Positions 26,172 through 30,005 of a DNA stretch of 64,000 nt are shown one piece after another; the stretch's first letter is position 1; every line of letters starts with the position of its first letter. Below the pieces are notes generated by a model. The model searched no databases and was not told the origin of the DNA. It worked only from the letters and a program-made list of their open reading frames with translations. The stretch is from Owenweeksia sp. (GTDB taxonomy: Bacteria > Bacteroidota > Bacteroidia > Flavobacteriales > Schleiferiaceae). The position numbers and the translations under genes were made by a program. The stretch spans positions 62,001 to 126,000 of the forward strand of contig JANQPD010000091.1 in the NCBI GenBank assembly GCA_028285465.1, in the 5' to 3' direction.

Positions 26172-26489
26172 ATGAAAAAGCTCTGGATAAAAATCAGTGA
26201 CAAACCATGGGTGAAATTTGCTACCAACAAGTTTATATTGGCTACCCTGGCCTTTGTGCTGTGGATGTTTTTTTTGGACGTAAATTCAGTGCTGATTCAC
26301 TATGAACTCAACGCGGATAAAGAGGAGCTGGAGCAAAGCATCCTCTACTACCGCACAGAAATAGCCAAAGACAAGCAATTGCTCGAGGAGCTCACTTCGG
26401 ACCCCGAAAAACTGGAGAAATTTGCCCGCGAGCAATACTGGATGAAAAGACCAGGTGAAGAGATCTACCTGATCGAAGAAGCTCACTAA
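26172..26489 (+). CDS. FtsB/DivIC-like septum formation initiator
   Basis: This 105-residue protein has a short cytoplasmic start, one membrane helix (KFILATLAFVLWMFFLDVNS), then a coiled coil (ADKEELEQSILYYRTEIAKD) and the conserved FtsB-type ending EKFAREQYWMKRPGEEIYLI. FtsB forms a complex with FtsL and FtsQ at the division site. It follows the ABC exporter on the same strand with a 71-base gap. Assignment to FtsB rather than DivIC is not possible by eye, because both share this layout. Its stop overlaps the 3' end of the convergent helicase gene by 4 bases. Confidence 0.85.
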   Translation: MKKLWIKISDKPWVKFATNKFILATLAFVLWMFFLDVNSVLIHYELNADKEELEQSILYYRTEIAKDKQLLEELTSDPEKLEKFAREQYWMKRPGEEIYLIEEAH

Positions 26490-27901
26490 AAGTATTCTTC
26501 CCCAAAACCGATCAGATATACTTTATCCCTGGCCCGGGTCATAGCGGTGTATAACCAACGTAAGGTTTCCAGATCCGGTTGTCCGGAAGGCATCCAGGGT
26601 TTTTCCACAAATACGTTTTCCCATTGCCCTCCTTGTGCTTTATGGCAGGTAATGGCATAGGCAAATTTCACCTGTAAGGCATTGAAGTAAGGGTTAGCGC
26701 GCACCTCCAGGTGACGCTTGTTTTTTTGTGGAATGTCTGCATAATCTGCCAATACTTCCTGATAAAAAGCCTGAGACTCCTCCCAACTTAGTGAAGCAGC
26801 TGGTTTGTCAATTACATCCAGCATTATGATGGTTTCAAAAGGTGCTTCCTGCGGGTAATCTACCATCCGGACCTTAACGCGGGCAAAACGATGCCCGTAA
26901 AAAGCATTGCGTTCGTAGATCTGAAGTAGCTCAACAATGTCTCCATTGGCTATAAAACCAGCCTTGCTTGCTTCAGGCAACCAGTAATAGTTGTTTTTTA
27001 CCACCATAAAATAATCCCCTGCGCCAATTTCTTCTTCTTGCCACAGGATACGCGCCCGTATTTGCTGGTTGTAGAGCGCTGCCCGTTTATTGGAACGCAC
27101 AAGTATGGCTGTATCTTCTCTTCCCGCATTTGCAAAGGAATGATTTAGGGCATCTTCTACCTCAAACCCCTCTACCAGCCGTATCACCTCTGCCCCGGTT
27201 TGGATCTTTGGCAAAACAAAAGGTTCCTGCTCTTGCAAAAGGCGTAATTGTGTAGCATTCGCCAAGATCTGAGAATTTCCCGATTGGCGCATTACTTCTT
27301 TCATCTCACATTCGGAAACCTTTAAGCCATAGGCTGTTTGCAAAAACTTGTGATCCAAAGCGGGGCTTTCGCTATCTCCAACCGGCGAAAGTTGTGCCTT
27401 GTCCCCTACCAGAAGCAACTTACAGTTTACACCCATTTGTACAAAGTGAAGCAGGTCTTCCAGCAAACTACGCGATGAAAAAGAGCGGTCACCTCCATTT
27501 GCGATCATTGAGGCCTCGTCAACAATGTACAGGGTGTTCGCCGCTTTATTTTCCCTTAAGGTGAAGGCCGTACCCGCAGCAGTTTTCTTAGAACGATAGA
27601 TATATTTATGAATAGTGAAGGCAGCCTTTTGGCTATATTGAGTCATTACTTTGGCAGCCCTCCCGGTAGGTGCTAACAGTGCCGTTTTTTGCTTAAAGGC
27701 AGGCAGTGTGTGCACCAATGTTTTGATCAGTGTAGTTTTACCGGTACCGGCATAACCTTTCAGCAAAAAGATGTGCTGTGTACCGGGAGTAAGACAGTAA
27801 CGTGCCAATAGCTCCAGGGCATACGCTTGATCAGCCGTAGGGCTAAGAGGGAAATTACGCTTTAGGGCAGAAGAAAATTTACCGAAACCTGAGGCATCCA
27901 T
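26486..27901 (-). CDS. RecD-like SF1 DNA helicase
   Basis: This 471-residue protein is a superfamily 1 helicase of the RecD/Dda type that unwinds DNA 5' to 3'. Walker A is at about residues 48-57 (LKGYAGTGKTTL), motif Ia LLAPTGRAAKVM, Walker B YIVDEASM, motif III LLVGDKAQLSPVG, and the C-terminal UvrD_C_2 part FAYAITCHKAQGGQWENV with the last motif WLYTAMTRARDKVYLI. It lacks the N-terminal domains of RecD2, so it is closer in size to Dda or Pif1. I chose the ATG at 27901: the open frame to 28003 runs through the divergent promoter of the next gene. Confidence 0.9.
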   Translation of the reverse strand: MDASGFGKFSSALKRNFPLSPTADQAYALELLARYCLTPGTQHIFLLKGYAGTGKTTLIKTLVHTLPAFKQKTALLAPTGRAAKVMTQYSQKAAFTIHKYIYRSKKTAAGTAFTLRENKAANTLYIVDEASMIANGGDRSFSSRSLLEDLLHFVQMGVNCKLLLVGDKAQLSPVGDSESPALDHKFLQTAYGLKVSECEMKEVMRQSGNSQILANATQLRLLQEQEPFVLPKIQTGAEVIRLVEGFEVEDALNHSFANAGREDTAILVRSNKRAALYNQQIRARILWQEEEIGAGDYFMVVKNNYYWLPEASKAGFIANGDIVELLQIYERNAFYGHRFARVKVRMVDYPQEAPFETIIMLDVIDKPAASLSWEESQAFYQEVLADYADIPQKNKRHLEVRANPYFNALQVKFAYAITCHKAQGGQWENVFVEKPWMPSGQPDLETLRWLYTAMTRARDKVYLIGFGEEYF

Positions 27902-27941
27902 GGCGTAAAAATAACCGCTATACAATGGCTTTAAAAACAAT

Positions 27942-27970
27942 TTTGCCAACAAAAAAAAGTTGTAGATTTG
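27942..27970 (+). promoter_or_regulatory. Promoter of the 28005 gene
   Basis: TTTG (27942-27945), 17 bases and TAGATTTG (27963-27970) match the Bacteroidota promoter with a slightly short spacer, 34 bases ahead of the start codon. Confidence 0.6.
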
Positions 27971-28004
27971 CCCGCAACAGTTCAATAAATAGCCCAAAAA
28001 CACT

Positions 28005-28613
28005 ATGAGTTCAACGGTTCAGACAGTTTTGAAAATCGTATTTGCACTTGCCATCATCGGGTTGTCGTACTACCTGTATGAGATCATCCAGGAGCCTATA
28101 CGTTTTGAAAAAATCAAAGACAAGCGTTATACACAAATTAAAGACCGTCTTGAAAACATCAGGGACGCGCAAAAGGCTTACCGTGCAGAGTACGGTGTTT
28201 TTGCCAAAGACTTTAACACACTCATTGCCTTTGTAGATACGGGTAAGCAGTCCATTATTGAACGGAAGGACTCTTCATTCATGTATTACAATAAGGTGTA
28301 TCAACAGGATATGAAAAAGGACACTGTGGTTGTAAAGATTTTGGGCTATCAGGACGTGAAGAAGAACCTTTTTGGAGAAAGCTTTGATGCTTCTCAATTG
28401 CGTTACATTCCTTTTACCGATAACGCAGAGTTTGATCTGGCTGCCGGACGTGTGGAAGCAAACCAGGTGGTAGTTCCTGTTTTTGAAGCGAAAGCACCGA
28501 ACCGGATTGTCTTTGCCGATATCATGAAAAAGTATCGCCAGTTCATAGATGTGGACTACGCGCTTACGATCGGCTCTCTGCAAGAACCCACTTTGAGTGG
28601 AAACTGGAAATAA
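28005..28613 (+). CDS. Membrane-anchored envelope protein, pseudopilin-like shape, unknown function
   Basis: This 202-residue protein has one N-terminal membrane helix (TVLKIVFALAIIGLSYYLYE), then a charged helical stretch (KDRLENIRDAQKAYRAEYGV) and a C-terminal mixed domain probably outside the inner membrane. The stretch AQKAYRAEYGVFAKDFNTLI is like the segment after the helix in type II pseudopilins (an aligned alanine-rich helix, then a Tyr-x-x-x-Tyr-Gly turn), but no prepilin peptidase site is present. It is found with DUF3822 and rsmD in relatives, as I recall. The next gene overlaps it by 17 bases. Function unknown. Confidence 0.75.
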   Translation: MSSTVQTVLKIVFALAIIGLSYYLYEIIQEPIRFEKIKDKRYTQIKDRLENIRDAQKAYRAEYGVFAKDFNTLIAFVDTGKQSIIERKDSSFMYYNKVYQQDMKKDTVVVKILGYQDVKKNLFGESFDASQLRYIPFTDNAEFDLAAGRVEANQVVVPVFEAKAPNRIVFADIMKKYRQFIDVDYALTIGSLQEPTLSGNWK

Positions 28614-29457
28614 GCACTTACGAAGAATTGCCTTTAGTAGAGACTTAAGCCTCGATGCAAGCAGCATTAAGCGCACACATGCTGTAATAAATGTAAGGTA
28701 TGATGGTTTGTCTGTTCTTGTTTTCTCTGAAGACAAGAAAAAGATTGTAGGCAGTTTCAATACGGACTGGGCACCACGCAAAGATCCCGAAGAACTTGTA
28801 ACAAAACTGGAACTTACCCTCAACGGGCTTGCTTTGGATATAAAACAGTGTAAAAATTTGCACTGGTTGTTAAGCCTGGAAAAGTTTGCGTTAATCCCAA
28901 GTGATTTTTATGTAAAGGGGCACGGCAGACAGATATTAGAAAATACTGCGAGGCTTAATAAAGGAGAACACATTTATACGGATGTATGGGCGGGAAACGA
29001 AATTGCACATGTATTTGCTATTCCCAACCCTATCATTGACTGGATTACCACCCACTTTCACGGCAGCACTTTTTCGCATAGCGCAACCGCGATAAACCGT
29101 TTGTACAAGTCTTACCCGAAGTCCGAAACTTTTGCCTTGTTACAGGTTGAGGATTATTCTGCAGAGTTTTATGTTGCCGATAAAGAAAGGCTCAAGTTTT
29201 ATAACATCTTTCCCTACGAAATAGAAGAAGACCTGCTTTACTTAATCCTCTTTGCCCTGGAACAAAGCGGTATTTTGGCGCCAGAAATAGAATTGAAATT
29301 AGCCGGAAAAGCTATTAAGGGAGAAAAGCTCTATATGCTGCTTGAAAACTATATGGGCAGTTTAAAACCGATCTCCCTGCCCGGTTATTTCGAGGTATCT
29401 CCTCAAATTGGCATACAGGAAGTACGCAGAGCATTCAAATTACTCGGAGGCGCATGA
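28597..29457 (+). CDS. DUF3822 family protein
   Basis: This 286-residue protein belongs to DUF3822, a Bacteroidota family of unknown role. The pattern of two similar halves, the first with HAVINVRYDGLSVLVFSEDK and the second with TFALLQVEDYSAEFYVADKE, followed by FPYEIEEDLLYLILFALEQS and a strand-glycine IELKLAGKAI, looks like the actin/ASKHA fold of the PilM and GspL type, though without the phosphate-binding glycine loops of active ATPases. That fold is my inference. It overlaps the gene before by 17 bases and rsmD by 4 (ATGA), so the three are tightly coupled. Confidence 0.8.
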   Translation: METGNKHLRRIAFSRDLSLDASSIKRTHAVINVRYDGLSVLVFSEDKKKIVGSFNTDWAPRKDPEELVTKLELTLNGLALDIKQCKNLHWLLSLEKFALIPSDFYVKGHGRQILENTARLNKGEHIYTDVWAGNEIAHVFAIPNPIIDWITTHFHGSTFSHSATAINRLYKSYPKSETFALLQVEDYSAEFYVADKERLKFYNIFPYEIEEDLLYLILFALEQSGILAPEIELKLAGKAIKGEKLYMLLENYMGSLKPISLPGYFEVSPQIGIQEVRRAFKLLGGA

Positions 29458-30005
29458 CACGAATCATTAGCGGAAAATTCAGGGGCAAGCACATCAAAGC
29501 TCCTAAAAACCTCCCTGTACGTCCTACTACCGATATGGCGAAAGAAAGCCTGTTTAACATCCTGAACAACCGCTTTTACTTTGATGAGATCAAAGTATTG
29601 GACCTCTTTGCCGGCACCGGCAATATCAGCTATGAATTTGCGAGCCGTGGCAGCGAACACATTATAGCAGTCGATGGATCGCATGCTTGTGTACAGTTCA
29701 TGGAAAAAATGACAGACGAAATGCAAACTACCGGTCTTTTTCCTGTAAAGTCAGACGTATGGCAGTATCTCGACCGCGAATACAACAAGTACGACCTGGT
29801 GTTTGCCGATCCTCCTTTTGACTTTGATGTTGAGGACTATGAAAAACTGGTAGATAAAATATTCTTCAAAAATCTACTGGCTGAAGACGGTCTTTTGATA
29901 GTCGAGCACCAGGAGCGCATATTGCTGGACCACTTTGAGCATTTTAGCCATGACCGCAAATACGGCAACATCCGCTTTAGTTTCTTCGAGCATGATAAAA
30001 TATAG
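29454..30005 (+). CDS. rsmD: 16S rRNA (guanine966-N2)-methyltransferase RsmD
   Basis: This 183-residue SAM-dependent enzyme methylates G966 of 16S rRNA in the assembled 30S subunit. It starts TRIISGKFRGKHIKAPK, the typical opening, then has the SAM-binding motif VLDLFAGTGNISYEFASRG, and the catalytic motif FADPPFDFD (DPPF in place of DPPY, common here). Length is typical. The ATGA overlap with DUF3822 points to translational coupling. Confidence 0.95.
   Translation: MTRIISGKFRGKHIKAPKNLPVRPTTDMAKESLFNILNNRFYFDEIKVLDLFAGTGNISYEFASRGSEHIIAVDGSHACVQFMEKMTDEMQTTGLFPVKSDVWQYLDREYNKYDLVFADPPFDFDVEDYEKLVDKIFFKNLLAEDGLLIVEHQERILLDHFEHFSHDRKYGNIRFSFFEHDKI

Follow-up and report, generated by a model that had tools for sequence, protein, structure and literature searches.

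The window analysed here, a 64,000-nucleotide stretch of an Owenweeksia sp. contig, carries a gene for a membrane-anchored protein, hereafter P1, followed by a DUF3822 gene and rsmD. The original prediction took the first two products for a pseudopilin-like and a PilM/GspL-like protein that could form a small trans-envelope assembly. The locus raises the question of what P1 and DUF3822 are related to, and whether the pair serves a pilus, DNA uptake, translation or some other envelope process.

Organization of the P1-DUF3822-rsmD locus

The three overlapping ORFs at positions 28005-30005 are genuine genes (Table 1). P1 and the DUF3822 gene share 17 bases (28597-28613), and the DUF3822 gene and rsmD share the four bases ATGA (29454-29457). 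In Pfam, the DUF3822 product scored 99.6 bits against a cut-off of 24.9, and the rsmD product scored 125.9 bits with Cons_hypoth95 (cut-off 24); with the NCBIfam RsmD model TIGR00095 the latter reached 107.4 bits, just under the cut-off of 117.5. No Pfam model matched P1 above its cut-off, the sub-threshold matches being Pilin_GH (20.3 bits, cut-off 28.9) and Apq12 (E 0.2, chance level), and the only named record matching P1 by similarity was from an uncultured Owenweeksia MAG (67% identical). The helix AQKAYRAEYG pointed out in the original prediction is present at residues 55-64. The boundaries of the pilin-like region in Table 1 correspond approximately to columns 25-76 of the P1 proteins from other classes of the phylum, where these match GspG, and were carried over via the alignment of Bacteroidia and other-class P1.

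A RecD-like helicase gene lies on the minus strand at 26486-28003, divergent from P1. Judged by eye, its true start is likely the ATG at 27901, which leaves about 100 bases up to P1. A relative was present in 53 of the searched loci.

Table 1. Features of the P1-DUF3822-rsmD locus (positions in the window)
Feature	Position	Strand	Basis and remarks
P1	28005..28613	+	ORF, 202 aa; single hydrophobic segment, pilin-like helix
P1 transmembrane helix, residues 8-24	28026..28076	+	Best 17-residue hydropathy window
P1 pilin-like helix and first loop, approximately residues 31-76	28095..28232	+	Transferred from other-class P1
P1 C-terminal motif S-G-N-W-K	28596..28610	+	AGT Ser codon holds the GTG start (28597) of DUF3822
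DUF3822 gene	28597..29457	+	ORF, GTG start, 286 aa; Pfam PF12864
rsmD, 16S rRNA (guanine966-N2)-methyltransferase	29454..30005	+	ORF, 183 aa; Pfam

P1 and DUF3822 are encoded side by side

By profile searches, P1 homologues occur in 124 of the 296 genomes sampled across the phylum and, within the order, in 106 of 186; the DUF3822 family was found in 77 of the 296. In the order, 104 genomes had both genes, and in all 104 these were adjacent, in the same order and on the same strand, where adjacency means a shared contig and strand and a distance of no more than 700 bases. P1 occurred without DUF3822 in two genomes, and 41 of the 145 DUF3822 genomes had no detectable P1, so DUF3822 can act without P1. 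Six genomes had two P1 matches, of which the piece nearer to DUF3822 was used; the two pieces lie in one or neighbouring frames in G349, G367, G381, G443 and G447, whereas in G452 the piece not used is on another contig.

In the other classes of Bacteroidota, the place of DUF3822 is taken by a gene whose product we call X. DUF3822 or X came next on the same strand for 84 of 84 P1 genes in the retrieved loci (57 from Bacteroidia and 27 from other classes), although these loci were picked for having P1 or DUF3822 and the whole-genome count is the fairer measure. Both counts bear out the tight coupling of P1 and DUF3822 that was predicted from the overlaps, and the pair recurs across Bacteroidota, also outside Bacteroidia in the form of P1-X. 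A literature search, judged by titles and abstract openings, found no paper on the P1-DUF3822 pair.

The overlap coincides with a conserved end of P1, in which G199 and N200 are invariant and W201 is kept in at least 90% of 56 sequences. Among 55 loci with the GNW motif, the DUF3822 frame was open at the motif in 33, and 26 of these 33 had a start codon there, start codons of homologues having been chosen by rule. The serine codon preceding GNW was AGT in 26 of 32 cases, against a background of 133/708 in these genes. Of the cases with an open DUF3822 frame, 17 of 18 used AGT, but so did 9 of 14 with a closed frame, so relatedness may explain much of the bias in these counts, which are not corrected for kinship. 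The codon bias was accordingly downgraded as proof of translational coupling.

DUF3822 is related to PilM

When a DUF3822 profile built from 57 proteins was compared with the PDB, the sole match (E 1.3e-61) was 3HRG, whose deposition title reads "BT_3980 with actin-like ATPase fold". The two-lobed actin-like fold of DUF3822 is thus supported by homology to a structure whose title names the fold. According to the available part of a 2014 paper on the type IVb pilus protein PilO2, N-PilO2 matches 3HRG with a Dali Z of 7.4, and PilO2 (PF06864) and BfpC are type IVb pilus assembly proteins (PMC3984277); DUF3822 differs from these in that it was in no pilus operon among the loci seen. BT_3979 is listed as a putative methyltransferase in the accessible portion of PMC8931616. 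Structure predictions made from two sequences each (the window and L062) gave mean pLDDT values of 36.8 for P1 and 40.4 for DUF3822, too low for either model to be usable.

The window DUF3822 protein showed no match to PF11104 (PilM) at E up to 1, and the link to PilM came through X. DUF3822 and X aligned over 211 columns (hhalign 96.6%, E 6.9e-10), while control comparisons gave at most 0.3%, both for DUF3822 with RsmD, RecD, ComEA-like, P1 (two sets) and GspG profiles and for X with five unrelated profiles. The X profile in turn matched the PilM structures 3jc8 (1.2e-17), 5eox (7e-12), 5eou (8.4e-12) and 2ych (1.1e-11), which we take to come from Myxococcus, Pseudomonas and Thermus; the next match was FtsA at 0.06. 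X aligned with PilM of type IVa pili (PF11104, TIGR01175; 2ych, 5eox, 3jc8) over most of its length. When 15 X proteins were scanned with PilM_2 (PF11104), two scored above the cut-off of 27 (40.8 and 37.7 bits), one scored below it and 12 gave no match; none of the 15 matched the DUF3822 Pfam model, L099, which does so at 24.6 bits, having been left out of the set. Other PF11104 matches were not counted as PilM: those of about 410-490 aa were read by eye as FtsA, and those in L194-L197 (about 340-366 aa) as MreB.

These comparisons make it well supported, at the level of sequence, that DUF3822 is a diverged PilM relative. The PilM-type actin-like fold anticipated in the original prediction is borne out by the 3HRG homologue, by homology to the PilM-family protein in the same position and by the Dali match of PilO2. 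Whereas PilM is encoded with pilN/O/P/Q and functions together with PilB/PilC, the neighbours of DUF3822 and X are P1 and rsmD. The cytoplasmic domain of GspL belongs to the same fold class as PilM and DUF3822, and GspL has its own transmembrane segment and periplasmic domain; E. coli GspL gave no match (0.1%, hhalign in global mode). The fold of DUF3822 is already in print, and what is added here is its identity as a PilM relative with a membrane partner.

In alignments with PilM, the X consensus has no acidic residue at the positions of the two phosphate loops of PilM, which suggests, without proving it, that nucleotide binding has been lost. A crude motif scan found a phosphate-2-like motif in 1 of 57 DUF3822 and 4 of 26 X proteins, and a phosphate-1-like motif in 21 of 57 and 6 of 26, respectively. 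DUF3822 is probably a cytoplasmic pseudo-ATPase.

Other-class P1 resembles GspG pseudopilins in one helical region

P1 of Bacteroidia and P1 of the other classes matched each other at 99.5% (hhalign, E 6.5e-23). The 27 other-class members are shorter, about 150-190 aa, and an ending of W-E type replaces GNW. Local hhalign matched other-class P1 to a profile of six GspG proteins (92.8%, E 3.9e-7); the 52 columns involved comprise the helix after the transmembrane segment and the first loop. With E. coli GspG alone, the match was 58.5% (E 9.6e-5). Bacteroidia P1 reached 2% against the GspG profile and 28% against one pseudopilin-like protein. Other-class P1 gave at most 1% with E. coli GspH, GspI and GspJ, no more than 21% with a further eight pilin-like proteins, and at most 0.6% with RsmD, RecD, ComEA-like, DUF3822 and X profiles; 25 other single sequences compared (11 pilins or pseudopilin-like proteins and 14 others, several named by eye) did not exceed 21%. 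Pilin_GH matched 14 of 56 P1 members at E up to 0.1, the best at 6.7e-4.

A prepilin leader G-F-x-x-x-E was found in none of the 27 other-class P1 proteins and in 2 of 56 from Bacteroidia, where it lies inside the transmembrane segment and looks like chance; the same test was positive for four of four E. coli pseudopilins. Compared with GspG (PF08334), therefore, the likeness is limited to the helix and first loop of other-class P1, and P1 is without the leader. A C-terminal likeness to GspG seen by eye was dropped as a ground for membership in that family, since local hhalign supports the helix region only. The pilin-like helix that had been predicted for P1 thus stands in part, through the local GspG match of the other-class members, and the prepilin leader, the defining feature of pilins, is absent. 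Against solved structures the best P1 profile matches were both non-pilins (E 0.27 and 0.089), with pilins at 0.35-0.9, and three PilN-type proteins gave no match to P1.

The charges flanking the transmembrane segment do not fix the topology of P1. A second, N-terminal hydrophobic segment was present in 6 of 56 relatives (L066-L068, L070, L071 and L129). In L133 (4989-6692), P1 has 568 aa; roughly 350 inserted residues separate its pilin-like helix from the GNW end, and no Pfam family matched above cut-off. In two genomes of family f9 (L093:4145-4951 and L095:5793-6614), the central insertion contains glycine-rich repeats, and that of L095 shows a weak likeness, below cut-off, to a biotinyl/lipoyl or HlyD barrel-sandwich domain. 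As the insertions in all three proteins leave the helix and the GNW end in place, these two ends look like the functional parts of P1.

Neighbouring genes and alternative roles of the pair

The gene downstream might suggest that the locus is held together by housekeeping synteny; DUF3822 would then act in translation or alongside RsmD, and P1 would be an unrelated envelope protein. We recognised rsmD in 69 loci in one search and, in a separate count, in 50 of 57 Bacteroidia and 26 of 27 other-class P1 loci; the DUF3822 stop and the rsmD start overlapped or abutted in 55 of 68 (rsmD starts chosen by rule); in several other-class loci, coaD follows rsmD, as judged by eye. However, seven of the 57 Bacteroidia loci that carry both genes of the pair had no rsmD in the retrieved stretch, the window DUF3822 protein matched no further Pfam family at E up to 1, and its published structural relatives, as described in the available text, serve membrane complexes. 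We consider this explanation unlikely. rsmD looks like a conserved positional neighbour, in line with the original suspicion that the link to rRNA methylation may be one of position only.

A second alternative is competence, in that the pair, one member pilin-like and the other an adaptor of PilM type, could belong to a DNA-uptake apparatus together with ComEA and ComEC. Twelve of 27 other-class P1-X loci, three X loci without P1 and L099 have a ComEA-like gene immediately upstream, as detected with a model built from eight proteins, all from these same loci. Its product has a hydrophobic N-terminus and a helix-hairpin-helix, and the ComEA models TIGR01259/TIGR00426 matched all four upstream ComEA-like proteins scanned. 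In Riemerella anatipestifer, transformation requires a helix-hairpin-helix protein and ComEC, and the uptake machinery has been described as unique and, in part, unknown (PMC8459023, available part). On the other hand, 19 of 20 wider Bacteroidia loci had no ComEA-like gene near P1, the remaining one giving a weak match (E 8e-4), and ComEC was not detected in 37 of 104 pair-bearing genomes, 13 of which are at least 90% complete and the others incomplete drafts. The accessible part of the Riemerella study does not name DUF3822 among the transformation genes, although one "hypothetical protein" there was not identified. Because the ComEA-like neighbourhood is not conserved and ComEC went undetected in so many genomes, competence was lowered as the main role, and we regard it as quite improbable.

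The remaining alternative is that P1 and DUF3822 are the missing minor pseudopilin and PilM/GspL of a T4P/T2SS-like machine encoded in the same genome. X is a PilM homologue, and a T2SS-type ATPase and platform are encoded elsewhere in the genome of the window, which is one of three with a strong T2SSE match among 13 P1-bearing Bacteroidia. The other ten gave nine weak matches (E 1e-5 or worse) and one none, and the T2SSF platform had no match in 10 of the 13 (from a sample of 118, tables read by hand). In addition, the machine in the window's genome has its own pseudopilin-like genes, and the L219 cluster has its own PilM-like gene, which X matches at 94.9% (global mode). Such a role is very unlikely. 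A survey of type IV filament systems, in its available part, places what is called the T2SS in Bacteroidetes together with type IVa pili (PMC6668835). Taken together, the unmatched T2SSF in 10 of 13 genomes and the undetected ComEC in 37 of 104 argue that the pair is not simply a part of a pilus or of ComEC-dependent DNA uptake, and a general role of either kind is unlikely.

Several features of these neighbourhoods may be recorded here. The T2SSE ATPase and T2SSF platform of the window's genome lie in one cluster (L216, G000:C94:34000-53000), in which secretin-like and pseudopilin-like genes were recognised by eye. In the window itself, a gene about 6 kb from P1 (21226-22308, minus strand) encodes a 360-aa ComEA-like protein with an N-terminal hydrophobic stretch, noted by eye, and four HHH_3 stretches; this protein might bind DNA and serve competence in this genome. 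In the other classes, dnaJ, in several cases also with grpE and hrcA, precedes all or part of the comEA-like/P1/pilM-like/rsmD run in L155, L160-L162, L198, L199, L201-L207 and L213 (names by eye), an unexpected association of heat-shock genes with genes of pilus type.

A proposed inner-membrane complex

We infer, with moderate confidence, that the pair is co-translated and forms a small inner-membrane complex in which a PilM-like pseudo-ATPase is docked on P1 and which is independent of a pilus motor or platform. The second hydrophobic segment in 6 of 56 P1 proteins and the weakened codon evidence somewhat lowered our confidence in this model. P1 would be held in the inner membrane by its transmembrane helix, with the pilin-like helix and the GNW-ending C-terminal domain probably on the outer side. 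DUF3822 would remain in the cytoplasm as a two-lobed actin fold that has seemingly lost its nucleotide motifs, and would dock on P1 much as PilM does on the bitopic PilN. In type IV pili, PilM is described as coupling from the cytoplasmic side, bound both to the PilN N-terminus and to the motor ATPase (PMC6325625, available part). By this analogy, DUF3822 beneath the membrane may couple the outer domain of P1 to a cytoplasmic partner. The window P1 has few residues before the transmembrane helix, and with so short an N-terminus any such contact would need to differ from that of PilM and PilN.

The pair may have descended from parts for type IV filament assembly. No longer dependent on the pilus platform, it may now serve some envelope process as a scaffold or a signal relay spanning the inner membrane. 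More speculatively, such a motor-free offshoot of type IV filaments, a leaderless pilin-like protein with its own PilM-like pseudo-ATPase, might be a core envelope component of Bacteroidota, kept in small draft genomes of 1-2 Mb that lack detectable ComEC. It might once have served DNA uptake, as the order ComEA-P1-PilM in the other classes suggests. DUF3822, so far a domain of unknown function, can now be identified as a PilM relative that often has a constant partner in the membrane, and these results suggest that PilM-type proteins can outlive the pilus machinery.
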